Positions 3,084 through 17,042 of a stretch of DNA of 21,840 bases are shown here, piece by piece. Within the stretch, counting starts at the first letter, position 1, and the number at the start of each line of letters is the position of its first letter. The stretch comes from a virus. The DNA lies in IMG/VR virus record IMGVR_UViG_3300025012_000842, positions 1 through 21,840 of that record; one strand, given 5' to 3'. The position numbers and the translations under genes were made by a program. The notes under the pieces are model-generated. The model made no database searches. It worked only from the letters and a program-made list of their open reading frames with translations, and was not told where the DNA came from.

Positions 3084-5257
3084 AGATAGTGATAACGGGG
3101 AAGGACGAATTTTCGGGAGTTATGGGGGGAATAGTTGGATCATTCGGCGACTTCGGAAATATCGTCACTGGTATCAAATCGGCTCTTGACTTGGCTGCCG
3201 GTGCAATTGATGCTGTGCTTACGCCGGTTATTGCGTTTGGACAGGAAGCCATCCTTACCGCCGCACGCGTAGATGAACTTAGAGTAGTCAATCAGGTTTT
3301 AGGAGAAACTGCTGGAATTCCGGCGTTATATCTTGAAAAGATAGCGACATCAATTCGCAGTATGGGTATCGAAGCGGGAATTGCCGAAACAACAATCGCG
3401 GCGTTTATTGGTGCAGAACTCGATTTAGCGTATGCTACTGACATTGCTCGTATTGCTCAGGATGCAGCAGTTATTGCAGGACAAAATTCAAGTCAGACTC
3501 TAAAAGATATTGTATATGGTATTGAAACTCTCAACCCGCTTGTATTGCGCCATGCCGGGATTGTCGTTGATCTACAATTGGCATACAAAGAATGGGCGGA
3601 TGAAAACGATAGAACAACAGAAAGCCTGACCACTGCCGAAAAGCAGCAGATAGCATTGAATGAGGTATTGGAAGCAGGCGTAGGGATTGCAGGCGCGTAT
3701 GCCGCTGCAATGGAAGAGCCTGGAAAAGTATTGCGCTCATTTCCCCGATACTTCGATGACATCATGGTCGCTATTGGTGAACCATTTCAGGAGGCGTTTG
3801 GAACTGTCATTTTTGCTATTGCCGATCTTGCTAAATGGTTTGGTAAGGCTGTCTCAGAAGGCGGTACTTTGCGTCCAATCCTGGAAGATATTGGGAGAAT
3901 TGCTGCAATCGCAGGTGAGGGGTTTGCAGAATTAGTTGATATTTTTATGAAACTGGTAAGCGGCGATATAGTCAAATTATATGATCTTGGTGCTGCGATG
4001 CAATCGTGGAAAGATGTAAATCCAATCTTCTATGATCTTGGAACAGCATTGAGAATTATTCAGCAGGCTCTTGATAATGGTGATACGCTCTGGGGCGCAT
4101 TGATTACAGCGGCAGACAGGTTAGGTGGTTCTGGCAGTCCATTAGCTGGAGTTCTTGAGTATATTTTAGATTTAAAAGATGCTTTTGGTGAGGGTGATGT
4201 TATAGGTGTAATTGGCTTTGTTCTCGCAAGTATACCAATAGAAGATATTGCTACTTGGGTTGTTGATTTGACGGACGAGATTGACGTTAAGCTGGCGGAG
4301 GCGATAAAACTTCACGATTGGACGGCATCTGGTGATGCGTTCGGAGATGCGCTACTTGCAGCATTTGGAGCAGGTATAGAGAGCAATGAATCGGAAGCCG
4401 TTCCTGCTATTGGTCAGGCAATCAGCGACTGGTTCTTTGGTGCTATGGGATTGGCAGATTTCTTTCCTAGTTGGAAGGTTTTCTGGCAAAGAATGTTAGA
4501 TCAAGTTACAAGCCAGGAAAATTGGACTGCAATCGGTATTGGCTTTGCCGATATGTGGAGCTATCTTGTATTAAGTATTCCAAATATGATTGCTAATGCT
4601 GACTGGGCAGCAATCGGTATCGGCTTTGCAGACATGTGGAGTTATGTCGTTCTTGCTTCATTAGACACTCTTGGAGAAATCGCGACAGGTTTCATGGATA
4701 TGCTCACCTTTCTCTTTGTAGAAATAGTGGATTTTATTGTTGGCACTGATGATTGGCGACAAATAGGAGAAGCTATCTCTCAAGGTTGGCAAAAGGCTGT
4801 GGATTTCGATTGGTCTTGGGATGCTGACAAATGGGTACATGAGAAAATCATCGACCCTATAAAGAAATGGCTAGGCATTTCCAGTCCATCAACCGTCTTT
4901 ATGGAAATTGGCGTCAACATCGTTGCGGGATTGGTGGCTGGTCTTACCGCTGCAACGGCCTGGTTGATAAATACAATTCAAAACATCGTTGCATTATTAC
5001 TAGCCCCCTTCGAGCCGATATTGAACCTGCTTGGTATCGACATCAGCAGCTTGACCAATCCCACACCCATCCCGATTGGTGGTGGGACAGGCAGCGGGAC
5101 TGGCAGCGGGACTGGCAGCGGAACGGGAACGGTCGTCAATCAATACTTCGCGGGCGCGACGATCAACGTCGGCTCGTGGGGAGAAATTGCTTATGACTGC
5201 ATTTATCCCAACCCGTTCATCGCAGCGACCAGCGGGCAATTAGGCGGCGGCGTATGA
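3068..5257 (+). CDS. Tail tape measure protein
   Basis: At 729 aa this is the longest protein in the window. It sits after the chaperone and before the Dit-like gene, as tape measures do. It is alpha-helical with many hydrophobic segments (for example AFGEGDVIGVIGFVLASIPIE, and WLINTIQNIVALLLAPFEPIL near residues 635-655), which fit the membrane-active part of tape measures. Residues about 485-525 hold two copies of a 27-residue unit with the shared core AIGIGFADMWSY. A Gly-Thr-Gly-Ser repeat (5083-5130) forms a linker before a small C-terminal domain. The start follows AAGGATT. It sets tail length and helps DNA passage. Its stop overlaps the next ATG (ATGA). Confidence 0.85.
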   Translation: MAAEVEIVITGKDEFSGVMGGIVGSFGDFGNIVTGIKSALDLAAGAIDAVLTPVIAFGQEAILTAARVDELRVVNQVLGETAGIPALYLEKIATSIRSMGIEAGIAETTIAAFIGAELDLAYATDIARIAQDAAVIAGQNSSQTLKDIVYGIETLNPLVLRHAGIVVDLQLAYKEWADENDRTTESLTTAEKQQIALNEVLEAGVGIAGAYAAAMEEPGKVLRSFPRYFDDIMVAIGEPFQEAFGTVIFAIADLAKWFGKAVSEGGTLRPILEDIGRIAAIAGEGFAELVDIFMKLVSGDIVKLYDLGAAMQSWKDVNPIFYDLGTALRIIQQALDNGDTLWGALITAADRLGGSGSPLAGVLEYILDLKDAFGEGDVIGVIGFVLASIPIEDIATWVVDLTDEIDVKLAEAIKLHDWTASGDAFGDALLAAFGAGIESNESEAVPAIGQAISDWFFGAMGLADFFPSWKVFWQRMLDQVTSQENWTAIGIGFADMWSYLVLSIPNMIANADWAAIGIGFADMWSYVVLASLDTLGEIATGFMDMLTFLFVEIVDFIVGTDDWRQIGEAISQGWQKAVDFDWSWDADKWVHEKIIDPIKKWLGISSPSTVFMEIGVNIVAGLVAGLTAATAWLINTIQNIVALLLAPFEPILNLLGIDISSLTNPTPIPIGGGTGSGTGSGTGSGTGTVVNQYFAGATINVGSWGEIAYDCIYPNPFIAATSGQLGGGV
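4529..4650 (+). repeat. 81-bp direct repeat within the tape measure gene
   Basis: Two copies offset by exactly 81 bases (4529 and 4610) both encode AIGIGFADMWSY. The 27-aa unit is preserved at protein level with silent changes. Repeats of this kind are common in tape measures and change tail length by whole units. Confidence 0.7.
5083..5130 (+). repeat. 12-bp tandem repeat encoding a GTGS linker
   Basis: A 12-base unit (GGCAGCGGGACT type) is repeated about three to four times and encodes Gly-Thr-Gly-Ser units. It forms a flexible linker between the helical body of the tape measure and its last 40 residues. Such repeats can change in copy number by slippage. Confidence 0.75.
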
Positions 5258-7170
5258 ATCTGCTTCTATTGACGTGGAACGGGATTAGCATCAACAACGG
5301 CTCGCCGTTCTATTCCGATTTCCCACCCGGCTCAAAGGTCAATATACACGGCAACGTCGTTACCGTTCCGCGCGCAGATAACTATCCCTATGTATCGGGG
5401 ATCGTAGCAGATCCGCAGTCTCTTATAATCCGGGTGAGGATTGCAGCGGGACAGGATATTGACACCAATCGGGAACTACTCAAGCAGTATTTCAATTTTG
5501 AGGACGGGCAGCGTCATAATCTGATTGCGGAGAATGGAGCAAGCGGAACGCAGTGGTACGTGACCGGCTTTGTACGCGACGTCCGAAATGAGGGAACGAA
5601 TAAAAATTCCTTCATGGTCTTATTCCAGATCGAGTATCCATACTGGAAACTTGTCACGGCGACCGATACCAGTTGGAGTGTAACGGCATCCGGGCAGACG
5701 CAGGCGATCACCAACGCAGGTAACCGCAAGATCGGGCCGAAGCTGACCCTGACCCCCACCAGCGCGAAAACGGGCGGGCTGAGTTATCGGCGCTGGATAC
5801 CGATTTATAACAATATGGATATATCCTATATTGCGCCGCTGGACATTACTAATGGCGGGCTGGATACGGCGACACTCACCACTGCCAAGATGCAGGCAGA
5901 CGGGGATGATTTCCTGGTGCTTGTGGATGGGGTCTTTGTAGATAGATGGCTTCAGGACATGGATACGGCAACGACGAAATGTTGGGTCAATCTAAACCTG
6001 GGGCCGCGCCGTGAAGGGACGACGAATACCAGCATAGCGGGCAGCGGGGCGATCACGACCATCACGCTATCAAAAACAAAAGCTAACCTGGAATTTCTAC
6101 ACGCGATGGCAGCGGCGGTCAACAAGGTCGTGCTGATCGATTCGGAGGCATTTACATTTACAGGCGCCAATCTGGTAACCTATCAATTGACAGGTGTAAC
6201 ACGTACCAAAAAAGATACGACCATCGCGGCGCACACCGCGCCGAAAACTGTACGCTGGATCGAGCATGACATCTGGATACTCTACGGGGATAGCACATTG
6301 ACCGCCCCGGATGTGGACAATGATAACAAGCCGATGTGCTCACTCGCGTCCACAAACGGGGCATGGGTGCTTACTAACTATTTTCAGGCAACCGGCGCAC
6401 GCACGGGCATGTGGAAAGGGGAGGTATTATCATCCCGAACAGGCCTGTCATACGTCTATACCGCGCCGGATAATACATTTGCTGACCCGTCCACATCCCT
6501 GGGGCTGGCATTGATAGGGAGTGCGGACTTCCAGGTACAGAATGAGACAGGTACGCTGGATTGGATATTCTCCCACCCCGCCACGATCACGACTGTTTTG
6601 TTTTCGGGTGATAAGTATATGAGTGGCTCGTGGCCTGCCATTGTAGGGCTTCAATATCTCCAGACAAATGCCGTATGGTTCACGGCTGACAACCAGGCCG
6701 AACCGACCGTTACTTATTCCTGGCAGAGTTTTGGCCCCACGACTGCCAACCTTGCATCTCCCTACCCCTCCGCGATCCGCTTTGTAATCGATGGCCTGCT
6801 GTCATCTGCCATCAGCGAGATGGCACTGGCTCAATTCGACACGGTAACCGTCACCTTTTCGAGTTCCAACCTGCCAACCATTGCGGTAGGGGCTGAGGCG
6901 GCGGCGTATTACTTCGATGCTACGATCACCAACAATACAAGCACGGAATATATTAAGTGCGCCGTGCCTTGCTTCCTGAATGAGACGGTGACAATTGACT
7001 GCGAAGTTAAGGATGCGTATCTCTCAGACGGCTCGCGGGTCAATGTGACGCTATCCACCGACCGCGCCGAATGGCTGGATTTATCTCCCGGCGCGAGTAC
7101 CCTGCAATACGACGATGTGGGCAGCAACGCCGTTACCGTGCATGTGATTCATCGCGATAGAACCCTGTAG
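5254..7170 (+). CDS. Distal tail (Dit)-like protein with a long C-terminal extension
   Basis: The 638-aa product follows the tape measure with a 4-base ATGA overlap. Residues 1-140 (LLLLTWNGISINNGSPFYSDFPPGS, then GTQWYVTGFVRDVRNEG and FQIEYPYWKL) match the plan of siphovirus Dit N-terminal domains, which form the hexameric ring at the tail tip. The rest is beta-rich with many Thr/Gly repeats and no catalytic motif that I recognise. It is probably carbohydrate-binding or structural modules, as in evolved Dit proteins. It is longer than a classical Dit of about 250-300 aa. The alternative is a general tail-tip protein. The final 38 bases overlap an opposing small gene. Confidence 0.65.
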   Translation: MNLLLLTWNGISINNGSPFYSDFPPGSKVNIHGNVVTVPRADNYPYVSGIVADPQSLIIRVRIAAGQDIDTNRELLKQYFNFEDGQRHNLIAENGASGTQWYVTGFVRDVRNEGTNKNSFMVLFQIEYPYWKLVTATDTSWSVTASGQTQAITNAGNRKIGPKLTLTPTSAKTGGLSYRRWIPIYNNMDISYIAPLDITNGGLDTATLTTAKMQADGDDFLVLVDGVFVDRWLQDMDTATTKCWVNLNLGPRREGTTNTSIAGSGAITTITLSKTKANLEFLHAMAAAVNKVVLIDSEAFTFTGANLVTYQLTGVTRTKKDTTIAAHTAPKTVRWIEHDIWILYGDSTLTAPDVDNDNKPMCSLASTNGAWVLTNYFQATGARTGMWKGEVLSSRTGLSYVYTAPDNTFADPSTSLGLALIGSADFQVQNETGTLDWIFSHPATITTVLFSGDKYMSGSWPAIVGLQYLQTNAVWFTADNQAEPTVTYSWQSFGPTTANLASPYPSAIRFVIDGLLSSAISEMALAQFDTVTVTFSSSNLPTIAVGAEAAAYYFDATITNNTSTEYIKCAVPCFLNETVTIDCEVKDAYLSDGSRVNVTLSTDRAEWLDLSPGASTLQYDDVGSNAVTVHVIHRDRTL

Positions 7171-10888: not shown

Positions 10889-11037
10889 GGTTGCAGAAAC
10901 TAGCAAAGGGCGACGCTGGCGGCGATTTCTCTTTTAGTTTCCTGTCGGGCAGGGTTTCTCTGCTGTATTCGGGTGGCGGCGGTCTAAAGGAAGAGGCCAC
11001 TACCTCCTAAAGTGTAGCACTTTCGGCTACGCGTGTC

Positions 11038-11067
11038 AATCTAATTCAATAGGCATCGAATTAGATT
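11038..11067. promoter_or_regulatory. 10-bp perfect inverted repeat after the HNH stop codon
   Basis: AATCTAATTC (11038-11047) and GAATTAGATT (11058-11067) pair perfectly around a 10-base spacer. The repeat touches the stop codon of the HNH gene. There is no T-run on either strand. Its half-site AATCTAAT also forms the palindrome at 19442-19460, so it may be a protein-binding site rather than a terminator. Confidence 0.5.
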
Positions 11068-11555
11068 TAGGGGCGATAATCAATGTATTTCGTGCTTTTC
11101 TTGCAGTTACAAGAAAGACAAAGCGGCTGGGCGTTCTCAATAGTATTCCTACCCCCCATACTCAAGGGGAGTACGTGGTCAAGAGTTATTTCGACTTCAG
11201 GAGATCGTCTGCCACAACACAGACAGGTATTGTTATATTTTTCTTTCAGATCCTCCCATTCCTGATATATGATTTTCCCATTGTTGCCGTTGGCGCGAGC
11301 GCGGTAAGAATGGGAAAATATTGTCTGAATACGCGGAAATAACCCTACCACCCTCTTTTTTGGAAGATAACTGGCGTCTAGATAAACGGGAGGCGGTTTT
11401 GTTGTTTTTGTTTTAGGTGGTTTAGAAATACGCGCATCTCGTCCGCTGTAAACGCATGACCCTGGGTATCTACCTGGCTTGGGTTCTCTTTTGAATTCCG
11501 ATAATTTATGCTCTACCCCGCACCTTGGACAAAAGCGTGTTAAAATCTCTTCCAT
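11067..11555 (-). CDS. HNH endonuclease
   Basis: The 162-aa product starts behind an excellent GGAGG motif. It has an N-terminal CPRCG zinc knuckle and a basic Pro/Lys linker. The HNH core at residues about 118-158 reads CLCCG, TLDHVLPLSMGG, IENAQPLCLSCNCKKS. The DH pair, the Asn and the two Cys pairs expected for a beta-beta-alpha metal nuclease are all present. It is free-standing, leftward and flanked by its own promoter and an inverted repeat. It probably acts as a homing endonuclease that spreads the region between related phages. Unlike the HNH gene at 2276-2950, its frame is intact. Confidence 0.85.
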   Translation of the reverse strand: MEEILTRFCPRCGVEHKLSEFKREPKPGRYPGSCVYSGRDARISKPPKTKTTKPPPVYLDASYLPKKRVVGLFPRIQTIFSHSYRARANGNNGKIIYQEWEDLKEKYNNTCLCCGRRSPEVEITLDHVLPLSMGGRNTIENAQPLCLSCNCKKSTKYIDYRP

Positions 11556-11585
11556 CGAAGCACCTCCGTTGTGCTGAGATCACGC

Positions 11586-11611
11586 TCCCGGTGTTCCATC
11601 ACGCGGGAGCA
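11586..11611. other. Leader hairpin upstream of the HNH gene
   Basis: GCTCCCG and CGGGAGC pair across a spacer in the 5' leader of the HNH gene, between its -10 element and the Shine-Dalgarno. No T-run follows. It may shape the leader RNA and affect translation, but it is only a structural candidate. Confidence 0.35.
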
Positions 11612-11622
11612 CATTCGTTCTG

Positions 11623-11631
11623 ATTATAACA
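11623..11631 (-). promoter_or_regulatory. Extended -10 promoter for the HNH gene at 11555
   Basis: The minus strand reads TGTTATAAT, a consensus extended -10. It lies just past the terminator of the cassette array. The leader to the ATG is about 60 bases. The -35 position holds C-rich terminator sequence and no -35 element. Confidence 0.55.
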
Positions 11632-11634
11632 CAA

Positions 11635-11653
11635 AGCCCCCTAAGTGGGGGCT
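11635..11653 (-). terminator. Terminator at the distal end of the cassette array
   Basis: On the minus strand AGCCCCC pairs with GGGGGCT around an ACTTA loop and is followed by TTGTGTTAT. The hairpin sits immediately after the last attC R' core (11660-11666). It would close the long leftward operon before the HNH promoter. Confidence 0.6.
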
Positions 11654-11659
11654 ATTGGA

Positions 11660-11783
11660 GCCCAACGGACTTGCGTTAGCGGCGGCGGGTTGTTCCACGC
11701 ATTACTGAATGCAGTTCACCATTTTCAGAAACACCAACATTTTCGCGGACGTCATCAGTCGTCCGCTGCACGCCGTGTTGGGC
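11660..11783 (-). repeat. attC-like site 15 (last in array)
   Basis: On the minus strand the R'' core is GCCCAAC (11783-11777) and the R' core GTTGGGC (11666-11660). The inner arms pair as GCGT/ACGC and AGCGG/CCGCT with one extra base on the R'' side. The loop is about 70 bases and carries the end of the cassette 15 gene. Confidence 0.8.
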
Positions 11784-11897
11784 GGCGCACACAGGGCAAC
11801 TTTCTGGATATTCGTGACGGCTACAAACAATATGCCTACATATTTTGTAAGTTGCAAAACTATAACATGCTTTTCCGCAAGCATCACAAATTTTCAT
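11676..11897 (-). CDS. Cassette 15: Cys-rich small protein
   Basis: A 73-aa protein with a GTGAGGA Shine-Dalgarno. The first 40 residues are packed with zinc-ligand candidates: MKICDACGKACYSF, then CRHIVCSRHEYPESCPVCAAQH. Two to three Cys/His pairs could bind two zinc ions in a RING-like or B-box-like fold. The C-terminal third (TTDDVRENVGVSENGELHSVMRGTTRRR) is encoded inside attC site 15 and stops at the TAA of its L' arm. I do not recognise the family. It is the last cassette in the leftward operon. Confidence 0.65.
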   Translation of the reverse strand: MKICDACGKACYSFATYKICRHIVCSRHEYPESCPVCAAQHGVQRTTDDVRENVGVSENGELHSVMRGTTRRR

Positions 11898-11924
11898 GCT
11901 TCCTCACTTCCTGGCGGAGCGTCC

Positions 11925-12036
11925 GCCCAACGGGGCGCGTGAGCCGCCACTAATTACCAATTGGACAAAGTGCATTATGACCACCAACAGCGTGACCGCA
12001 CTTAGGACAAACAGTCGGCTCCACGCCGTGTTGGGC
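11925..12036 (-). repeat. attC-like site 14
   Basis: R'' GCCCAAC (12036-12030) and R' GTTGGGC (11931-11925) on the minus strand. GCGTGGAGCCG pairs with CGGCTCACGC, leaving a single extra G on the R'' arm. This is the classical extrahelical base of attC. Confidence 0.85.
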
Positions 12037-12138
12037 GGTTTGCTTTGATGGCAGCAAAACAATTGGAAGATCATTACTTCTTTGCTCGGTCACAGAGCCA
12101 TCCCTGTGAATTACTACTTGTTTTTTCTCGTCTGACAT
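11950..12138 (-). CDS. Cassette 14: small protein with a C-terminal zinc ribbon half
   Basis: A 62-aa protein with an AAAGGA Shine-Dalgarno. The N-terminal part (MSDEKKQVVIHRDGSVTEQR) is charged. The C-terminus (PTVCPKCGHAVGGHNALCPIGN) holds a CPxCG knuckle with further His and Cys. That C-terminal part is encoded within attC site 14, and the TAG stop lies in the loop. The same phrase type (VEPTCPNCG...H...C) ends the cassette 10 protein. Function unknown; probably a zinc-bound regulator or structural small protein. Confidence 0.65.
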   Translation of the reverse strand: MSDEKKQVVIHRDGSVTEQRSNDLPIVLLPSKQTAQHGVEPTVCPKCGHAVGGHNALCPIGN

Positions 12139-12167
12139 TTTATTTTCCTTTCAAAGTCGGGTAGTCC

Positions 12168-12297
12168 GCCCAACGGACTTGGGTTAGACGCTTGGCGTTT
12201 CACGCGCAAGCGATTCATTGAGCAATGCAATATCTTCGGCGGAGACACCGCAGAACGGGCAACCAGTAGCCAAGTCGCCTGCACGCATTTGTTGGGC
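12168..12297 (-). repeat. attC-like site 13
   Basis: R'' GCCCAAC (12297-12291) and R' GTTGGGC (12174-12168) on the minus strand. GCCAAG and CTTGGC form the inner stem. The L' arm has GTCTAACCC in place of the usual CTAACGC. The loop encodes the end of the cassette 13 protein. Confidence 0.75.
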
Positions 12298-12408
12298 GGC
12301 GATATAGTTTGGGGAATGATTACAATCGCAGATACCGCCGTCAATTTTACGATGACATCCCCCACTATCATGCTCGTCTATCGAATGTTTGCAATATTGA
12401 CAATTCAT
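12184..12408 (-). CDS. Cassette 13: small multi-zinc protein
   Basis: A 74-aa protein from ATG 12408; an upstream in-frame ATG at 12441 would start inside the preceding attC and is less likely. MNCQYCKHSIDEHDSGGCHRKIDGGICDCNHSPNY carries CxxC, H, C/H and CxC ligands. A second CPFC knuckle (GCPFCGVSAEDIALLNES) lies in the part encoded by attC site 13. The stop is the TAA of the L' arm. The CxxC-x-H-x-C-x-C-x-CxH pattern resembles small phage zinc proteins; function unknown. Confidence 0.65.
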   Translation of the reverse strand: MNCQYCKHSIDEHDSGGCHRKIDGGICDCNHSPNYIAAQQMRAGDLATGCPFCGVSAEDIALLNESLARETPSV

Positions 12409-12435
12409 TTCAAAATCTTTCTGTTGAGCTAGTCC

Positions 12436-12529
12436 GCCCAACGGTTTGCGTTAGTGGCTTTGGCGGCGATATAGAGCCACAAAAAATTTGCCACACAGTA
12501 GCCAAAGTCCACTGCACGCGATGTTCGGC
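12436..12529 (-). repeat. attC-like site 12
   Basis: R'' GCCGAAC (12529-12523) and R' GTTGGGC (12442-12436) on the minus strand. Arms pair as CTTTGGC/GCCAAAG, then AGTGG/CCACT, then GCGT/ACGC, with extra bases only on the R'' side. This is one of the cleanest attC folds here, but no gene precedes it. Confidence 0.85.
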
Positions 12530-12563
12530 TGGCAAGCCGTCCCTGTGCAAGCCCGTGTTAGCC
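12530..12563 (-). repeat. Orphan attC half-site (R''-L'' of site 11)
   Basis: The minus strand begins GGCTAAC (12563-12557), then GGCTTGCACAGG, as in the R''-L'' half of other sites. It is followed at once by the R'' of site 12 with no L', no R' and no gene between. It looks like the remnant of cassette 11's attC fused to site 12 by deletion. Confidence 0.5.
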
Positions 12564-12565
12564 CG

Positions 12566-12778
12566 CTACTCGGAATGGAATTTCAACTTATCGAACCACC
12601 GAGACGGCTCGAAGCGACCAACGATTTTCTTAGCCTTCTCGATTACGCCAGGCGCAGGATCATCATCCAAGAACCAGAGTGTGTATTCCCACGGATCACC
12701 CTTCTTTGCCTTATGGACTTCGACCTGACCTGCGCCGAACTCATTAGCAAGAGCCTGATTCGCTTTTGTATAGTTCAT
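12566..12778 (-). CDS. Cassette 11: small cysteine-free protein
   Basis: A 70-aa protein with an AAAGGAT Shine-Dalgarno. MNYTKANQALANEFGAGQ, then EVHKAKKGDPWEYTLWFLDDDPAPGVIEKAKKIVGRFE suggests a compact alpha/beta protein. No Cys pairs are present, unlike many neighbours. The stop lies 3 bases before the orphan R'' core, so the gene ends outside the attC. Family unknown. Confidence 0.65.
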   Translation of the reverse strand: MNYTKANQALANEFGAGQVEVHKAKKGDPWEYTLWFLDDDPAPGVIEKAKKIVGRFEPSRWFDKLKFHSE

Positions 12779-12789
12779 AACCTATCCTT

Positions 12790-13002
12790 TCAAGAGCGGG
12801 CTACTTTGCAGTCGGCGGTAGGGTGATAATGCAATGGTTCGCCGCAGTTTGGACAAGTCGGCTCCACGCTTTTGTTAGCTGGTTGCATTTCAGGCAAACC
12901 AAGCCCCATGAGTTTGATACACGGCAGGCAAAGTTCATTCCATGCCGAATAATGAGTTGGATACACCTTTACTTTTTTACCACAACGATCACATTTTTCC
13001 AT
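12790..13002 (-). CDS. Cassette 10: small double zinc-knuckle protein
   Basis: A 70-aa protein with an AGAAGG Shine-Dalgarno. The first half (MEKCDRCGKKVKVYPTHYSAWNELCLPCIKLMG) has CxxC plus CxxC, a complete four-Cys zinc ribbon. The second half (VEPTCPNCGEPLHYHPTADCKVARS) has CPNCG, H, H and C ligands and is encoded inside attC site 10. The stop falls just past the degenerate R' core. It is likely a zinc-binding nucleic-acid or protein adaptor; family unknown. Confidence 0.65.
   Translation of the reverse strand: MEKCDRCGKKVKVYPTHYSAWNELCLPCIKLMGLGLPEMQPANKSVEPTCPNCGEPLHYHPTADCKVARS
12798..12880 (-). repeat. attC-like site 10 (degenerate R' side)
   Basis: R'' is AGCTAAC (12880-12874) and matches exactly the core GTTAGCT at the 5' edge of its cassette. 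R' reads GTAGCCC (12804-12798), one T short of GTTAGCCC. The L'' arm (GCGTGGAGCCGAC) has no good partner, so this site is decayed. Confidence 0.55.
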
Positions 13003-13026
13003 GATTACCTTCTTTCTTGAAGAGCC

Positions 13027-13145
13027 AGCTAACGATTAGTTGCTCGGCGGGTCATCGAACACAATACGACCTTTTGCAATCACTTTTGGTTGCAGGTTGA
13101 AAACTTCGGGAATCTCCGCCGAGTCAACTGCACCCGTAGTTGGGC
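13027..13145 (-). repeat. attC-like site 9
   Basis: R'' GCCCAAC (13145-13139) and R' GTTAGCT (13033-13027) on the minus strand. The arms pair perfectly as CTCGGCGG/CCGCCGAG and AGTTG/CAACT with one extra base. The two cores of this site do not match each other but match those of the flanking cassettes. Confidence 0.8.
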
Positions 13146-13299
13146 GGCTCAATCTCCAAACCTCCAACGCCAAGTCTCCAGCAATTTGATGATATTTACG
13201 GACAAGAGTTGCAATTTCTTCGCGCAACTCATTATAGTTAGGATTGTCACAGCAGAATTCCGCAACAGTGTCGATCTCTTTTTCTAAATCAACGTTCAT
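13036..13299 (-). CDS. Cassette 9: small helical protein
   Basis: An 87-aa protein with a perfect AAGGAG Shine-Dalgarno 5 bases before ATG. MNVDLEKEIDTVAEFCCDNPNYNELREEIATLVRKYHQIAGDLALEVWRLS is amphipathic helical. The last 35 residues (TTGAVDSAEIPEVF ... IVFDDPPSN) come from within attC site 9 and stop at a TAA in its L' arm. The N-terminal part may be a helical bundle or dimerisation segment. Family unknown. Confidence 0.65.
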   Translation of the reverse strand: MNVDLEKEIDTVAEFCCDNPNYNELREEIATLVRKYHQIAGDLALEVWRLSRPTTGAVDSAEIPEVFNLQPKVIAKGRIVFDDPPSN

Positions 13300-13320
13300 T
13301 TCTACTCCTTACAGCGCACT

Positions 13321-13437
13321 GTCCAATGGTCTTGCATTACTGGCTGGCGATTTATACATCCAACCACGCTCGGCAAGACCACACAAATTCACCAATACGA
13401 TAATTAGCCCACGCCCAAAGCCCACGCTTTGTTGGGC
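13321..13437 (-). repeat. attC-like site 8 (degenerate)
   Basis: R'' GCCCAAC (13437-13431) is intact. R' reads ATTGGAC (13327-13321). L'' (GCGTGGGC) and L' (CAGTAATGC) pair poorly. It keeps the position and size of a site but has probably lost activity. Confidence 0.55.
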
Positions 13438-13552
13438 GGAATTTACGGCATTTGCAGGTTTGACGCACGCAAGCACCATCATAAGTATCATCAGACAAGT
13501 GCGTACCATGAAACCTTTGGGGGTGATTGCATTCACAAAAACTTTCTTTCAC
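13352..13552 (-). CDS. Cassette 8: CxC-H...C-CxC zinc protein
   Basis: A 66-aa protein from GTG 13552 with AAGGT just upstream. The head VKESFCECNHPQRFHGTHLSDDTYDGACVRQTCKCRKFRP has the pattern CxCxHx(4)H...C...CxC. This is a recurring small phage/plasmid zinc fold in my reading. The tail (GLWAWANYRIGEFVWSCRAWLDV) is aromatic-rich and encoded by attC site 8. An overlapping frame with a signal-peptide look (13309-13536) is judged a shadow. Confidence 0.65.
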   Translation of the reverse strand: MKESFCECNHPQRFHGTHLSDDTYDGACVRQTCKCRKFRPTKRGLWAWANYRIGEFVWSCRAWLDV

Positions 13553-13572
13553 GTTTACCTTGCAGGGCTTCC

Positions 13573-13703
13573 GCCCAAGGCTTGCGTTAGCGGCTGGTTG
13601 CGGGATTGCAAACCGAACAGTTGATAGCGATACCATCGGCGCGGATGATACCTTTATCGCCACACGCCCAGCAACCAGTCGGCTGTGCAAGCGGTTGTTG
13701 GGC
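13573..13703 (-). repeat. attC-like site 7
   Basis: R'' GCCCAAC (13703-13697) and R' CTTGGGC (13579-13573) on the minus strand. The inner stem CTGGTTGC/GCAACCAG is perfect and AGC/GCT extends it. Only the first base of R' departs from GTTRRRY. Confidence 0.75.
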
Positions 13704-13820
13704 GGCTTGTCTATCTAGCCAACTTGCAAAATCAAACCTTGCAAAATGATCGTTTACCTTAATTTTTCTTCCTGCTAGTCTCAATTCTTCCTCGTAATCA
13801 TTCATGAGTTTTAGATACAT
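13587..13820 (-). CDS. Cassette 7: small protein whose zinc ribbon lies in the attC loop
   Basis: A 77-aa protein with an AGGAAAGG Shine-Dalgarno. The first half (MYLKLMNDYEEELRLAGRKIKVNDHFARFDFASWLDRQAAQQP) is helical. The second half (GCWACGDKGIIRADGIAINCSVCNPATSR) is a four-Cys CxxC...CxxC zinc ribbon encoded wholly within attC site 7. It ends at the TAA of the L' arm. The recombination site therefore doubles as coding sequence for the metal-binding domain. Family unknown. Confidence 0.65.
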   Translation of the reverse strand: MYLKLMNDYEEELRLAGRKIKVNDHFARFDFASWLDRQAAQQPLAQPTGCWACGDKGIIRADGIAINCSVCNPATSR

Positions 13821-13845
13821 ATTTTACCTTTCCTAACTAAGTCCG

Positions 13846-13970
13846 CACCAACGGTTTGCGTTAGTTGCGGCGGGTTGCCGCACCACATTTACAACCGAAG
13901 TTCTCTAATTGGTAGGCGTTGCATGTACAGCCGGGAGCCTTCCCGCCGTCAACTGCACGCATTGTTAGAC
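13846..13970 (-). repeat. attC-like site 6
   Basis: R'' GTCTAAC (13970-13964) and an R' of the form GTTGGTG (13852-13846). The arms pair as CGGCGGG/CCCGCCG, then AGTTG/CAACT and GCGT/ACGC, with extra bases on the R'' side. The loop has an open frame with a Cys-rich peptide. Confidence 0.8.
13863..13963 (-). CDS. Possible 33-aa Cys-rich peptide within attC site 6
   Basis: An ATG placed between the R'' core and L'' (minus strand ...ACAATGCGTGCAG) opens MRAVDGGKAPGCTCNAYQLENFGCKCGAATRRN. It stops at the TAA of the L' arm. It has CxC and CxC pairs like the tails of neighbouring cassette proteins. No Shine-Dalgarno is visible. It may be the remnant of a longer frame whose 5' part was lost, or chance. 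It is listed because the pattern recurs in other sites. The 3' limit is set from the stop within the arm and is approximate. Confidence 0.3.
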
Positions 13971-13974
13971 CGCT

Positions 13975-14088
13975 TCATGGTAGCCACCAACACGGACAAA
14001 TTTGGCGAAGCTGTAATACAACCAAAACCAAACCTATGACTCCAGCCAGCCATACTGTGATAAATATTAGTTCTCGTTTCTTGTTCAT
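13975..14088 (-). CDS. Cassette 6: 37-aa single-span membrane protein
   Basis: ATG 14088 follows AAGGAAAA and encodes MNKKRELIFITVW, then LAGVIGLVLVVLQL, a basic N-terminus followed by one clear hydrophobic span. The tail RQICPCWWLP holds two cysteines and paired tryptophans. It ends 4 bases before the R'' core of site 6. The size, charge pattern and span fit a small inner-membrane protein with the N-terminus inside. Possible roles are superinfection exclusion or membrane modulation, but this is only inference. Confidence 0.6.
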   Translation of the reverse strand: MNKKRELIFITVWLAGVIGLVLVVLQLRQICPCWWLP

Positions 14089-14112
14089 TGATTTTCCTTG
14101 CCCGAAAGAGCG

Positions 14113-14228
14113 GGCTAACGGTTTGCGTTAGCGGTTGGCGGGATTTCTCAAAATCCATTCGGGCAACGCAATACCGGGTAATAATTCATCCGCCAATCCG
14201 CTGCACGCCGTGTTGGGCGGCACATGGG
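14113..14228 (-). repeat. attC-like site 5
   Basis: R'' GCCCAAC (14228-14222) and R' GTTAGCC (14119-14113). The stems TTGGCGG/CCGCCAA, AGCGG/CCGCT and GCGT/ACGC are all perfect, with one T and one extra base bulged. A textbook attC-like fold. Confidence 0.85.
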
Positions 14229-14397
14229 ACGCGCAGTACGCACGATAAAAACCATCTTTACGGATCGAGCCGCCATTTTTCAAAACAATCTTTTCGGTGG
14301 CTTTGGTTGTTTTGGCAGTTGCCAAATGGCGACCACACGAAAAACAGTATTGAGAGTGCATGATCTTACACACGATAGTATCACCTAAAATTTTCAC
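14128..14397 (-). CDS. Cassette 5: small CxxC protein
   Basis: An 89-aa protein from GTG 14397 behind a GGAG motif; an upstream ATG would start inside attC 4 and is less likely. VKILGDTIVCKIMHSQYCFSCGRHLATAK has a C...CxxC cluster, and RKDGFYRAYCASHV adds Cys and His, so one zinc site is likely. The last 29 residues (PPNTACSGLADELLPG ... NPANR) are encoded by attC site 5 and stop at its L' TAA. Family unknown. Confidence 0.6.
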   Translation of the reverse strand: MKILGDTIVCKIMHSQYCFSCGRHLATAKTTKATEKIVLKNGGSIRKDGFYRAYCASHVPPNTACSGLADELLPGIALPEWILRNPANR

Positions 14398-14426
14398 TGT
14401 TTGCTCCTTCTGGCTATAAGGTAGCC

Positions 14427-14516
14427 GCCGAACGGCTTGCGTTAGGCGCATGGGTGGCTATGACTGTCCGATTTTGACCGCCGCCCACCCATGTCGCCTG
14501 CACGCATTTGTTAGCC
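14427..14516 (-). repeat. attC-like site 4
   Basis: R'' GGCTAAC (14516-14510) and R' GTTCGGC (14433-14427). CATGGGTGG pairs with CCACCCATG over 9 bp, extended by GCG/CGC and GCGT/ACGC, with the extra base on the R'' arm. It is a short site of 90 bp. Confidence 0.85.
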
Positions 14517-14520
14517 CGCT

Positions 14521-14685
14521 TCATGACCTCTGAAACTTCCTGCCACACTTCGGACATACTTTCTCGACTTTGTTGCCAGTTTTCCTGACAACAAGTTTCA
14601 CGCCGAACCCACAAAAAATACATCTTGTTTTACGTAGTTCACGAAAAATCTTGGTACTGCTTCCGTGCGGTCTGACAATACTCAT
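14521..14685 (-). CDS. Cassette 4: 54-aa zinc ribbon protein
   Basis: ATG 14685 follows AAAGGATG. MSIVRPHGSSTKIFRELRKTRCIFCGFGVKLVVRKTGNKVEKVCPKCGRKFQRS is a compact zinc ribbon: CIFCG, a two-strand hairpin, then CPKCG, with a basic surface. This is the clearest metal-binding fold in the array and could bind nucleic acid. The stop lies just outside the R'' core of site 4. A longer frame beginning in attC 3 (102 aa) has no Shine-Dalgarno and is rejected as the start. Confidence 0.7.
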   Translation of the reverse strand: MSIVRPHGSSTKIFRELRKTRCIFCGFGVKLVVRKTGNKVEKVCPKCGRKFQRS

Positions 14686-14708
14686 AATTACATCCTTTGC
14701 AAAGTGCC

Positions 14709-14838
14709 AGCTAACGGCTTGCGTTAGCGGCGGGGCTGACCGCACGCAAGACAATAATTTGTGCCATTCGCCACCGTGAAGGATAACCCTTCTTTGCACG
14801 CACAGTAAGCCCCGTCCGACTGCACGCATGTGTTAGGT
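14709..14838 (-). repeat. attC-like site 3
   Basis: R'' ACCTAAC (14838-14832) and R' GTTAGCT (14715-14709). CGGGGC/GCCCCG and CGG/CCG stems with GCGT/ACGC and an extra base on the R'' arm. The R'' core matches exactly the GTTAGGT that starts its own cassette. Confidence 0.85.
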
Positions 14839-15350
14839 GGCTGGAATATGACAATGCACATCACGGCGGCGGCAATCATCCCACCCGCCACAAACATTCT
14901 GACCCTGACCAATGCGGCCGCGAGCACACTGGCGCTCAACATCACAGCAGCCAACGGCTGGGGTAAACCATGTTTGGCTCCGACAAAGATGGGACGACCA
15001 CGCAAAAAGCGAACCGTGCCTTTCATGCAAAAGTCGTGCCACCAATTAGTATTAGTGCGGGCAGGAAGTAGACAGACAACCGTTGCTCCTCGCAGGCTTT
15101 CCGTGTAAGCCTTTTTGACCCACACAGATTGCCGACCAAATGGCGGGTTCATCCAACACGCATGCCACTGTGACCAATCTTGCAAAAGACCATTCTCCTC
15201 AATGGTATATCTTAGTGAACACTTCTTGTTATGCTCGGAAGCACAAACATCAATCACGATGTCAAATTCAGCCTCCAACGGTTTGAAGATACTATCGGGA
15301 GTTTCCCAATCTTCTCTTGCGTGTGCAAACTTCGTATCAAATTTAGCCAT
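14724..15350 (-). CDS. dam: Cassette 3: phage-type DNA N6-adenine methyltransferase (Dam)
   Basis: A 208-aa protein. DTKFAHAREDWETPDSIFKPLEAEFDIVIDVCASEHN and WMNPPFG (residues about 67-73, the catalytic NPPF/DPPY-type motif) mark a phage Dam family methyltransferase. Later parts (VVCLLPARTNTNWWHDFC and RFLRGRPIFVGAKHG) also fit the family. Two oddities follow. A hydrophobic stretch (PLAAVMLSASVLAAALVRVRM and beyond) takes the place of the usual short last strand. The last about 40 residues, with CAC and CLAC pairs, are encoded by attC site 3. The only Shine-Dalgarno candidate, AGGTGG, overlaps the R' core of site 2. It could protect phage DNA from restriction or alter regulation. Confidence 0.8.
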   Translation of the reverse strand: MAKFDTKFAHAREDWETPDSIFKPLEAEFDIVIDVCASEHNKKCSLRYTIEENGLLQDWSQWHACWMNPPFGRQSVWVKKAYTESLRGATVVCLLPARTNTNWWHDFCMKGTVRFLRGRPIFVGAKHGLPQPLAAVMLSASVLAAALVRVRMFVAGGMIAAAVMCIVIFQPPNTCVQSDGAYCACKEGLSFTVANGTNYCLACGQPRR

Positions 15351-15355
15351 AAGCC

Positions 15356-15483
15356 ACCTAACGGTGTGCTTTACCTGCGCTTGGTGGGCTTGGATAAGGT
15401 TTGAGATGTGGATAAAACTTTCGGCTTGGAAACTGCTTTTTTAGGCGCAGACTCCCAAGCGTCAGGTGCAGGCTTTGTTCGGC
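15356..15483 (-). repeat. attC-like site 2
   Basis: R'' GCCGAAC (15483-15477) and R' GTTAGGT (15362-15356). CGCTTGG/CCAAGCG and ACCTG/CAGGT stems are perfect with a bulged T. The two cores of the site do not match each other, but each matches the far core of its own cassette. Confidence 0.85.
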
Positions 15484-15591
15484 GGCGTTATCATCTTCGT
15501 TTTCTTCTTCCAGGCGGCAAACTTCGCACAACTCAAATTCACCGCTTGGGCTTAGATTTGCTGGCAAACAACTACATTCATAAATACCCAT
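15358..15591 (-). CDS. Cassette 2: small Cys-rich acidic protein reading through its attC
   Basis: A 77-aa frame. The part outside the attC, MGIYECSCLPANLSPSGEFELCEVCRLEEENEDD, has CxC and CxxC pairs, one possible zinc site, and an acidic tail. The frame continues through the whole of attC site 2 as a basic segment (LRLKKQFPSRKFYPHLKPYPS...) and stops at the TAG of the R' core GTTAG. The Shine-Dalgarno is weak (GAAGTGAG). It is possible that only the first half is functionally important. Family unknown. Confidence 0.5.
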   Translation of the reverse strand: MGIYECSCLPANLSPSGEFELCEVCRLEEENEDDNAAEQSLHLTLGSLRLKKQFPSRKFYPHLKPYPSPPSAGKAHR

Positions 15592-15623
15592 TTATTTCTC
15601 ACTTCTCGGCTGGCAAGGTAGCC

Positions 15624-15714
15624 GCCGAACGGTTCGCTTTAGTGGCTTGGCGGTTCGTAACCTTCGCAAAAAGACACACCGTACCGCCAAGTCCACTGCA
15701 AGCGTTTGTTAGAC
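15624..15714 (-). repeat. attC-like site 1 (promoter-proximal)
   Basis: R'' GTCTAAC (15714-15708) and R' GTTCGGC (15630-15624). The arms pair as CTTGGCGGT/ACCGCCAAG and AGTGG/CCACT with bulged bases on the R'' side. It is 91 bp long. Confidence 0.85.
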
Positions 15715-15996
15715 CCCGCCCCACATATTGCGAATATCATCAGGGGAGAGACCACTGGACAAAAGAGAAGCAATCATTTGTTTACTCTCTTGTTCATTGC
15801 GATACTCTGGGGTCATTTGGTGCATGACCAAGAGACCAGCCACAACATCATCGCGCTCATCGTGGCTTGACTTGCCCATCATGCGGGCAACTGCGCCGAA
15901 TAAACCAGCCATTGCCATATTGTTTGGGTCATCAGAATCAATCCGCAGACCTGTTTCGCGTTCCATTCGTTCAATCAAATCACTTGCTGCGCTCAT
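15709..15996 (-). CDS. Cassette 1: small helical protein
   Basis: A 95-aa protein with a strong AAGGAG Shine-Dalgarno. MSAASDLIERMERETGLRIDSDDPNNMAMAGLFGAVARMMGK, then DDVVAGLLVMHQMTPEYRNEQESKQMIASLLSSGLSPDDIRNMWGGV is almost all helical with no Cys. The TAA stop lies inside the R'' core (GTCTAAC), a common arrangement in integron cassettes. It is the first cassette after the early operon and so probably the best expressed. Family unknown. Confidence 0.7.
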   Translation of the reverse strand: MSAASDLIERMERETGLRIDSDDPNNMAMAGLFGAVARMMGKSSHDERDDVVAGLLVMHQMTPEYRNEQESKQMIASLLSSGLSPDDIRNMWGGV

Positions 15997-16038
15997 GTTT
16001 TTTCTCCTTTTGGGTGATACCCTGCCAGCAAGACAGGG

Positions 16039-16045
16039 GTCTAAC
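16039..16045 (-). other. 5' boundary core of the cassette array (attI-like junction)
   Basis: The minus strand reads GTTAGAC, the exact partner of the R'' core GTCTAAC of cassette 1. No L'' arm or gene-bearing attC lies beyond it. An imperfect inverted repeat (ATGAGCG at 16052-16058 and CGCACTCAT at 16072-16080) sits just upstream. This is where the cassettes are joined to the phage backbone. Whether it ever worked as an integrase attI site cannot be told from sequence. Confidence 0.5.
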
Positions 16046-16082
16046 TAGGGTATGAGCGGAGTGTACATCGTCGCACTCATTT

Positions 16083-16277
16083 TCAAAAATCCAGCTTGAT
16101 GTACCTTTTCCGCTTTTTGTTTATTACAACATCAGGCACGACTTTCTCAAGTGCCTTTTCCAGGGCGATTTTTACCGCATCAGTCCTGCTCATTTTGTAG
16201 ATCGCATCCTCATTCAATTTATCTGCAAGTGCTTCGATGCAAGGCAGGTAGTCCGTGAGATCAGGTCGGTATTTCAT
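16083..16277 (-). CDS. Small early protein upstream of the cassette array
   Basis: A 64-aa basic helical protein (MKYRPDLTDYLPCIEALADKLNEDAIYKMSRTDAVKIALEKALEKVVPDVVINKKRKRYIKLDF). The middle resembles a ribbon-helix-helix or other small DNA-binding dimer segment (SRTDAVKIALEKAL), but this is tentative. Its start overlaps the previous gene by 17 bases, so it is coupled to it. It is the last backbone gene before the array. Confidence 0.6.
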   Translation of the reverse strand: MKYRPDLTDYLPCIEALADKLNEDAIYKMSRTDAVKIALEKALEKVVPDVVINKKRKRYIKLDF

Positions 16278-16419
16278 CTTCGTTTTCCAGCGCGTCGTGA
16301 TCCTGGACGCATTCCCACTCGCGGGTGAGTGGGTTGTACTCCATCTCGTGATCGCATATCCGGCAGACGGGATCGCCGTCCGGGGATTCGGAGGGAGGGT
16401 CGAAGGTGAGGCGGGTCAT
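16261..16419 (-). CDS. Small CxxC zinc protein of the leftward early operon
   Basis: A 52-aa protein: MTRLTFDPPSESPDGDPVCRICDHEMEYNPLTREWECVQDHDALENEDEIPT. CRICDHEM and WECVQDH give a Cys2-Cys-His zinc site. It is coupled by ATGA to the upstream gene (16416-16419) and overlaps the downstream start. Short Cys-pair proteins of this type are frequent in phage early regions; the role is unknown. Confidence 0.6.
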   Translation of the reverse strand: MTRLTFDPPSESPDGDPVCRICDHEMEYNPLTREWECVQDHDALENEDEIPT

Positions 16420-16682
16420 GCTGGCTCCTGGGCGAGAAGGGCGCGGGCTTCTTCAGGTAATTCCACGAACATCACACCAATTGAGGTTATGTGTTTTCCG
16501 GTCCCGTTACAGACGCGGCACTCAATCATATCATCCGAAAAAACGCCTTTGCCATTACAGTAATCACAATCGCTGAAGTTGTCAGAAAATTTACTGACAA
16601 ACTCCCTCAGTTTCGCATTCTCCGCTTCCAGCGCCGCGATAGTTTGTGTTTGACTACCATGCAATTCTTCGAATTTGTTCAT
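16416..16682 (-). CDS. Coiled-coil protein with DnaJ-like CxxCxGxG repeats
   Basis: An 88-aa protein with an AAAGGAAAA Shine-Dalgarno. The N-terminus (NKFEELHGSQTQTIAALEAENAKLREFVSKF) is a coiled coil. The middle has CDYCNGKGVF and CRVCNGTGKH, two CxxCxGxG units as in the DnaJ zinc domain, enough to bind one zinc. The C-terminal helix is acidic. It is the first gene from the minus promoter at 16708-16737. It may be an adaptor that binds a host protein or nucleic acid. Confidence 0.65.
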   Translation of the reverse strand: MNKFEELHGSQTQTIAALEAENAKLREFVSKFSDNFSDCDYCNGKGVFSDDMIECRVCNGTGKHITSIGVMFVELPEEARALLAQEPA

Positions 16683-16707
16683 GTGCGTTTTCCTTTTCTA
16701 TACCAGG

Positions 16708-16737
16708 ATTATAAAGCAGGAACATTGAATTTGTCAA
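16708..16737 (-). promoter_or_regulatory. Leftward early promoter (sigma70-like)
   Basis: On the minus strand TTGACA (16737-16732) and TATAAT (16713-16708) are both perfect, with an 18-base spacer. It drives the three small early genes and, with no terminator seen between, the whole cassette array down to 11635. Confidence 0.85.
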
Positions 16738-16741
16738 GGGC

Positions 16742-16752
16742 GTTTACTAAAC
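16742..16752. promoter_or_regulatory. Operator candidate 1
   Basis: GTTTACTAAAC is a perfect palindrome around its central base. It lies between the two divergent early promoters, where a repressor could bind. Confidence 0.45.
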
Positions 16753-16780
16753 TGGTTTATAAAGAAGTTACAAAAATGAC

Positions 16781-16792
16781 AGTAAATTTACT
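16781..16792. promoter_or_regulatory. Operator candidate 2 overlapping the plus-strand -35
   Basis: AGTAAATTTACT is a perfect 12-bp palindrome. It shares the TTTACT half with candidate 1 and abuts the -35 TTGACA of the HTH gene promoter. Binding here would block that promoter, possibly by autoregulation. Confidence 0.5.
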
Positions 16793-16820
16793 TGACAACA
16801 CAATCAAGGCGTAGTAATAT
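16792..16820 (+). promoter_or_regulatory. Rightward promoter of the HTH gene (leaderless message)
   Basis: TTGACA (16792-16797), a 17-base spacer and TAATAT (16815-16820) form a near-consensus promoter. Only 6 bases separate the -10 from the ATG at 16827. The transcript must then begin at or within a base of the start codon. Confidence 0.8.
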
Positions 16821-16826
16821 CAGGAC

Positions 16827-17042
16827 ATGGAAAAAAAATACCCCACCCCCCACTCCCGCCGCGTGCTGGGAAATGAATATGAACAGACCCGCCGCGAATA
16901 TGCAAAGCGGGCGCGCAGCCTGCTAAAGAAAGGTTACTCGCTGAGACGGGCCGCGGCGATCATCGGGGTTAGCCACCAAACAATTAATTTATGGATGAAT
17001 ATATACTATCCATCAGATAAGGAGGCGGAAGGGGAAGCGTAA
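16827..17042 (+). CDS. Small helix-turn-helix regulator
   Basis: A 71-aa basic protein. Residues about 24-58 (YAKRARSLLKKGYSLRRAAAIIGVSHQTINLWMNIYYP) form a clear helix-turn-helix with the GYS-x-RxAA-x-xxGVS-x-xTINxW pattern of resolvase/transposase-like or MerR-type HTH domains. There is no other domain. It is transcribed from its own promoter as a leaderless message and sits next to two palindromes. It is a strong candidate for the regulator of the divergent early promoters. The acidic C-terminal tail (DKEAEGEA) is short. Confidence 0.7.
   Translation: MEKKYPTPHSRRVLGNEYEQTRREYAKRARSLLKKGYSLRRAAAIIGVSHQTINLWMNIYYPSDKEAEGEA

Follow-up and report, generated by a model that had tools for sequence, protein, structure and literature searches.

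The stretch of DNA analyzed here (hereafter the window) comprises 21,840 bases of one IMG/VR virus record (IMGVR_UViG_3300025012_000842, positions 1 to 21,840), in which tail genes on the left are followed by an HNH gene, a repeat region, and RecT and replication genes. The repeat region holds an array of integron-type gene cassettes: 14 attC-like sites in the same orientation between 11660 and 15714 (13 recovered with a covariance model, R1, and 1 with a template scan), separated by small open reading frames (ORFs) that are all read on the minus strand. Integrons are regarded as devices with which bacteria capture genes and which phages carry occasionally. A first-pass annotation, made from the sequence alone, had described about 14 repeats with RYYYAAC and GTTRRRY cores in one orientation and small genes pointing the same way, and both descriptions were borne out. 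It had extended the array to 16045, but the attC repeats end at 15714 and position 16039 holds a single core box without a full repeat, whose likeness to attI the annotation had not noted. As in an integron cassette array, R boxes enclose L arms that pair with each other, one of which carries extrahelical bases, although some window sites are weak, and the sites keep one orientation and the intervening ORFs one direction. With at least 2 attC sites and no integrase nearby, the locus is a cluster of attC sites lacking an integrase (CALIN). It is not a complete integron, as a search with TIGR02249 found no intI in any of 7 records (G001 to G007, including G001, which holds the window sequence, and G004, which has terminal repeats), in agreement with the earlier remark that no integrase was in view.

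The template scan (up to 7 mismatches) returned 13 sites, all on the plus strand and all within 11660-15714, compared to 0 to 4 in 20 block-shuffled windows; it missed the attC at 13027-13145. An 18-base attC search motif was taken from the window sites and run on IMG/VR, where it found 39 stretches on 37 contigs; the window phage and its relatives account for four of these. R1 was built here from viral sites and is not the attC model of IntegronFinder. It was trained on 53 sites from other viral contigs plus L017, with the window, L014, L016, and the relatives' stretches excluded; as the motif derives from sites of the window type, such sites are favored in the training set. R1 gave 13 matches in the window at E ≤ 1 (23.6 to 78 bits, 90 to 131 bp), all on the plus strand and all within 11660-15714, and none in the window outside the array. 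Failure of an attC covariance model to match, which the first-pass annotation had named, jointly with a gene order and repeats fixed in all related phages, as grounds for abandoning its proposal, was thus not observed. Among other search designs, a right-arm pattern found one viral contig and a left-arm pattern performed better, and a fuzzy regular-expression scan was rejected after missing most sites. A weighted scanner was useless at low cut-offs and, at a cut-off of 40, gave 2 sites when 1.24 Mb of reversed sequence was scanned.

In the 53 training sites, 97.6% of the cells of the inner helix were paired under a hand-written structure, with eight pairs changed on both sides, and the outer R-box helix was 83.6% paired. 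Covariation was 0.405; shuffling gave 0.129 (standard deviation 0.009), and sliding gave no more than 0.105. Neither the number of doubly changed pairs (10) nor that of pair types (31) over these sites was higher than in shuffles. The extra base on one arm that had been pointed out earlier is real in the training sites: on the plus strand, which is the attC bottom strand, the right arm carries an invariant unpaired T and, in at least 90%, an unpaired G. Weak window sites, such as 13321-13437, deviate from this pattern.

In an integron, the variable bases flanking an ORF come from one cassette circle; core boxes are therefore expected to agree between the two sides of an ORF but not between the two ends of one site. 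In the viral records (window and G001 excluded), the match was significantly higher across cassettes (6.39 of 8, n = 135) than within sites (3.75, n = 172; P = 2e-32), neighbors within one array not being independent in these box statistics. Matches of at least 7 were found in 81 of 135 comparisons across and 10 of 172 within. With G001 included, the values were 6.37 across, 3.81 within, 3.99 when one cassette was skipped, and 3.95 at random. Boxes at bacterial loci gave 7.07 across (n = 129) and 4.09 within (n = 224). The box pattern suggests that viral cassettes are units that move as circles, for which it is as expected, although it is weak in the window alone.

The array of the window recurs at 99.99% identity in G001 and G002, which have different metagenome ids, and two further relatives, G004 and G005, carry arrays of their own in the same place and orientation. 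Backbone identity was 85.1% over 8.0 kb between G004 and the window, 78.8% over 8.4 kb between G005 and the window, and 80.5% over 21.3 kb between G004 and G005. In the array region, the window and G004 have in common one attC (11660-11783, 91% identical over 116 bp to the L014/G004 attC, with unlike DNA past it) and a 95-bp stretch past the end box, and nothing is in common there between the window and G005 or between G004 and G005. The second part of the joint refuting condition in the first-pass annotation, a gene order fixed in all relatives, was not observed either; the relatives hold different cassettes. In another pair, G066 and G073 (87.6% over 4.4 kb), one whole cassette with its attC is common (98% over 260 bp), with four further array matches of 58 to 99 bp. 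A 115-bp terminal repeat suggests that the G004 record is complete, and it also has matches to terminase and portal. An assembler could have joined a bacterial integron contig to phage sequence, and the 80,305-base record G001 is a composite of two strain variants: its first 26 kb repeats its last part in variant form (76-97%), as though 1.4 turns of a circle had been assembled. Such an artefact is nevertheless extremely improbable, given the same array in two other records with different metagenome ids and ten array records with terminal direct repeats, nine of which have a terminase or portal match.

The array is bounded by a box of its own, in which 7 of 8 variable bases are complementary to the box of the last attC. 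Of 20 fetched intI regions, 7 had a host attI box (AAC then TATGnnTTA; RYYYAAC complete in five) 140 to 200 bases before intI; an eighth box (L193) lies past the 3' end of intI. Four of these eight loci had an attC in reach, and their boxes matched that of the last attC at 7, 8, 7, and 6 of 8 bases. Among 42 cluster ends examined in viral arrays, 29 had a candidate box at 6/8 complementarity or better. The end-box set of 24 comprised 23 of these 29 plus G005, added by motif; G001, which repeats the window, and five boxes judged by eye were excluded (four continue AACGG like an attC, and one, in G062, fits nothing). The host attI motif was present at 6/7 or better in 10 of the 24 viral end boxes, compared to a background of 0.1% for AAC triplets and 0.4% for RYYYAAC; exclusion by eye favors this figure, but 10 of 29 would still be far over chance. 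At 4 or better, it was present in 21 of the 24 (5% of AAC triplets), and the end box of G004 fits at 5/7. Judged by sequence, the array terminus resembles the attI boxes that lie next to intI in genomes of Anaerolineales, with a partial fit to their consensus in the window (4/7). ORFs similar to the 64-aa ORF at 16083-16277 occupy the same position in G068, G081, and G084, with fragments in G059 and G005. This small ORF is conserved across phages of differing terminase groups, and its copy in the window has no Pfam match.

Another 33 viral records came from the motif scan, with the window phage and its relatives excluded. At scanner cut-off 40, 31 of them had at least 1 site and 27 at least 2. 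Sites within each viral cluster were on one strand; G056, G061, and G080 had sites on both strands, but far apart. Terminases, identified in only part of the array records, belonged to at least 3 PHROG groups (phrog_2 kind in G004, G062, G071, and G078; phrog_9 in G072 and G084; phrog_38 in G059, G081, G067, and G079). Site spacing was significantly shorter in viruses (338 bp, quartiles 274-472, n = 137) than in host loci titled Chloroflexota (822 bp, 733-1062, n = 101; P = 1e-30), and was 335 and 810 bp with G001 and some overlapping or other-titled host loci included. Median attC length was 112 bp in viruses, with two peaks, and 130 bp in bacteria. Pfam was run on 20 of 37 cassette ORFs of at least 125 aa, chosen by eye and including that of the window; 12 of the 20 matched DNA methyltransferase families, one below cut-off, and no enrichment of methyltransferases is claimed. 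Nine other window ORFs had no match at Pfam cut-off.

Integrase genes were found in few of these viruses. In the 33 further records, which are often fragments, 3 had intI over cut-off and 5 had any match at 1e-3; among ten terminally redundant array records, only G072 had intI. In G067, G072, and G079, intI ends at an attI-like box and points toward the array; in seven host loci, it points away from the attI box. A scan with the IntI of these three records returned 286 viral loci, and of the 80 listed, 17 were of this kind (assigned by 3' end and neighboring sites), 13 with a downstream site. Sixteen of the 17 form one clade (support 100/99) apart from 19 host rows; these rows came only from motif-picked genomes, and the clade could have bacterial members. 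Terminase was present in all 3 of the 17 IntI contigs checked. Against 50,697 phage records, the G079 IntI had nine matches at 1e-20, the best at 49%. The other 63 of the 80 listed loci (L280-L282, L286-L312, L314-L346) were of another kind, 49-59% to the G079 IntI, and 13 of these had a scanner match, at a permissive cut-off, upstream of intI in classic orientation. KX853513 (Virus Rctr41k, from an enrichment culture) also has an IntI-like gene, annotated xerD, at 4689-5639 (45% to viral IntI).

In bacteria, a genome scan with the window-type motif gave 98 stretches, and 65 of the 80 listed had titles naming Chloroflexota of some kind. R1 run on 80 of the 98 loci found 246 sites at 1e-3, the top one at 93.8 bits. 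Of 121 genomes drawn from one host order, 39 had a site at 1e-8; the portal of G004 was found in 2 of 301 genomes of the host order. IntI genes exceeded the cut-off in 27 of 48 genomes with the attC motif and in 0 of 14 control genomes, and because of these 27 genomes a supply of integrase in trans appears plausible. The ORF at 15358-15591 matches host loci but was rejected as a gene in common with them, since the L179 match lies inside an attC. One bacterial contig (G114:C8 97133-98254; L349, L350) had four short attC sites 244 to 549 bp apart with small cassettes; a gene resembling terminase (34% to the one in G079) lies 3 kb away, and other phage-like genes are close by. This locus is likely a prophage with its own phage-type array. 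Two loci titled Bathyarchaeota (L087, L117) carry the window attC type and are perhaps misbinned bacterial contigs.

Taken together, these data indicate that the locus is probably an integron array of the Anaerolineales (Chloroflexota) attC type in a tailed phage, with an attI-like end and no intI, recombined by IntI in trans. The attC fold, the modularity of cassettes in the viral group, the differing cassettes of relatives, the attI-like end, and the failure to find intI, all read from sequence, argue for it. Several results weigh on the other side. Three of the 13 window attC sites scored below 35 bits with R1. Box matching in the window alone was weak (5.67 across, n = 12, compared to 4.85 within, n = 13; P = 0.06). 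The end box fits the host attI consensus at 4/7 in the window and at 3/7 in G005. These weak sites, the weak box signal, and the poor attI fit suggest that the window array may be partly decayed. Folding of the bottom strands, a check proposed in the first-pass annotation, showed no preference for the bottom strand (mean z of -2.4 for the bottom and -2.65 for the top strand, and -0.52 for 40 control pieces), and folding energy was set aside as uninformative about strand. No near-identical pair differing by one gained or lost cassette was found. An alternative in which a piece of chromosomal integron was acquired once by illegitimate recombination, and is now decaying without cassette exchange, would account for the weak attC sites and fused remnant in the window, its weak box signal, and the identity of G004 and L013 over 12.5 kb, array included. 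We consider this unlikely, as relatives have the backbone in common and not the cassettes, viral spacing is far below the bacterial value, and attI-like boxes are present in many viral records.

Two comparisons are not explained by plain cassette transfer. The window and G004 have one attC in common with differing ORFs. The cassette body of G071 and a chromosomal cassette near intI in G034 are 89% identical (392/441) from core box to core box; however, their own attC sites (126 and 91 bp) are not common beyond two 27-base stem arms, so that part of an ORF is common and no whole cassette. Because an ORF part is common without its own attC, the preferred reading and the broader proposal given below are slightly weakened and another gains slightly, namely that homologous recombination between similar attC stem arms, or phage mosaicism, changes the cassettes with no integron integrase involved. 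Both pairs speak for that, G071 and the host chromosome differing in attC loops and being alike again only in the stem arms. Its overall probability is nonetheless small, since box matching over 135 viral cassettes and the attI-like ends are expected from core cleavage, and G066 and G073 have a whole cassette in common.

For an array recombined by IntI in trans, we infer the recombination itself, promoter use, the host, and the benefit as follows. Phage DNA replication would expose single-stranded attC bottom strands, which an integron integrase supplied in trans, from a host chromosomal integron or a co-infecting intI-bearing phage, could recombine. New cassettes would enter at the box at 16039 and be expressed from the leftward promoter-like site around 16737. 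Since most cassettes are small and a number of them encode DNA methyltransferases, the phage would likely benefit from having anti-restriction and other host-interaction genes that can be exchanged. A broader proposal, to which we give slightly less than an even chance, is that Anaerolineales phages share their own integron economy: a viral IntI clade oriented toward the array in some, attI and cassettes with a trans integrase in many, and a pool of mini-cassettes, some with DNA methyltransferases, that is largely apart from the bacterial pool but leaks into it. Phages may be a larger home for integron cassettes than thought. Phages from several terminase groups, with one bacterial host group, repeatedly carry arrays that end in a landing-site-like box, viral cassettes are smaller than bacterial ones, and some phages have a separate integrase clade. 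Cassettes could be transferred by way of such arrays, part of the cassette pool may originate in them, and phages could use them to exchange anti-restriction genes; they also make testable whether phage replication, by exposing single strands, drives cassette shuffling.

Features of the array and its surroundings are listed in Table 1. Two HNH-type endonuclease genes lie on the minus strand, one inside the tail region (2276-2833) and one between the tail region and the array (11067-11555). No Rfam match at gathering cut-offs and no tRNA gene were found in the window, and megablast of the window against the 50,697 phage records gave no match.

Table 1. Features of the cassette array and its flanks, in order of reading on the minus strand.
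Feature	Position	Strand	Remarks
Promoter-like site, TTGACA-18-TATAAT, pointing into array	16708-16737	-	Consensus match only, 12/12; sole such score in 10900-16900
Small ORF, 88 aa, after promoter-like site and before attI-like box	16416-16682	-	
ORF, 64 aa, directly upstream of attI-like box	16083-16277	-	Without match in Pfam at 1e-4
attI-like end box, GTCTAAC then TAGGGTATGAG (read on +)	16039-16056	-	
Cassette 1 ORF, 95 aa	15709-15996	-	
attC 1 (top strand on -; modelled strand reads on +)	15624-15714	-	R1 59.9 bits
Cassette 2 ORF, 77 aa	15358-15591	-	
attC 2	15356-15483	-	R1 73.2 bits
Cassette 3 ORF, 208 aa, Dam-type DNA adenine methyltransferase	14724-15350	-	Pfam PF05869 9.1e-29; phrog_111
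attC 3	14709-14838	-	R1 65.5 bits
Cassette 4 ORF, 54 aa	14521-14685	-	
attC 4	14427-14516	-	R1 62.8 bits
Cassette 5 ORF, 77 aa	14128-14361	-	
attC 5	14113-14218	-	R1 74.2 bits
Cassette 6 ORF, 37 aa	13975-14088	-	
attC 6	13846-13970	-	R1 78 bits
Cassette 7 ORF, 77 aa	13587-13820	-	
attC 7	13573-13703	-	R1 41.2 bits
Cassette 8 ORF, 66 aa, frame uncertain	13309-13509	-	
attC 8, weak	13321-13437	-	R1 23.6 bits
Cassette 9 ORF, 87 aa	13036-13299	-	
attC 9, weak	13027-13145	-	R1 31.3 bits
Cassette 10 ORF, 70 aa	12790-13002	-	Zinc-ribbon matches, all under Pfam cut-offs
attC 10, degenerate	12803-12880	-	Template scan only; not matched by R1
Cassette 11 ORF, 70 aa	12566-12778	-	
attC 11 (12436-12529) with box remnant to ~12554	12436-12554	-	R1 70.7 bits; remnant by eye
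Cassette 12 ORF, 74 aa	12184-12408	-	
attC 12	12168-12297	-	R1 51.2 bits
Cassette 13 ORF, 62 aa	11950-12138	-	
attC 13, weak	11925-12036	-	R1 34.9 bits
Cassette 14 ORF, 73 aa	11676-11897	-	
attC 14, final one of array	11660-11783	-	R1 74.3 bits
Terminator-like hairpin directly past array	11635-11653	-	Weak: 8 such sites compared to 7.8 in shuffles

The first-pass annotation had considered cassette arrays abnormal in tailed phages. The array here is genuine, but attC clusters and integrons had already been reported in phages: among 10,705 phage genomes, the available part of Qi et al. 2023 (PMC9892861) counts 17 CALINs along with three complete integrons and a solitary integrase, and five of six phage sites tested there recombined with IntI1. 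Those CALINs resemble the window in being attC clusters without integrase in phages and in having methyltransferase cassettes. In the same part of that paper, the sole example with a stated number of sites has 3, compared to up to 14 here, and no attI-like end is described for the clusters without intI in virulent phages, whereas an attI-like box is recurrent here. The arrays here also differ from those CALINs in belonging to one host group and several terminase groups. Vibrio phage Va_90-11-286_p16 and Shewanella phage M16-3, phages with complete integrons from the same source, are like the viral IntI records in having an integron-integrase gene in a phage record; their IntI are 42.6% and 43.8% identical, respectively, to that of G079, and the integron of the Vibrio phage is described there as part of the host's chromosomal integron. 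No report of arrays in Chloroflexota phages was found, including in the available part of PMC12772301, nor any earlier report of an attI-like end, a viral IntI clade, or a small-cassette pool, in a literature coverage that is incomplete and has preprints and most subscription journals outside it. Viral arrays and Anaerolineales chromosomal integrons are alike in attC type, in attI box, and in one ORF part held in common. In Anaerolineales integrons, attC sites are mostly 129-130 bp and about 822 bp apart, with intI beside attI pointing away from the array; in contrast, the sites of viral arrays are shorter on average and closer together, mostly without intI. Phage attC clusters have been known since 2023; within the literature covered, the attI-like array end, the viral IntI clade, and the small-cassette pool appear to be new.

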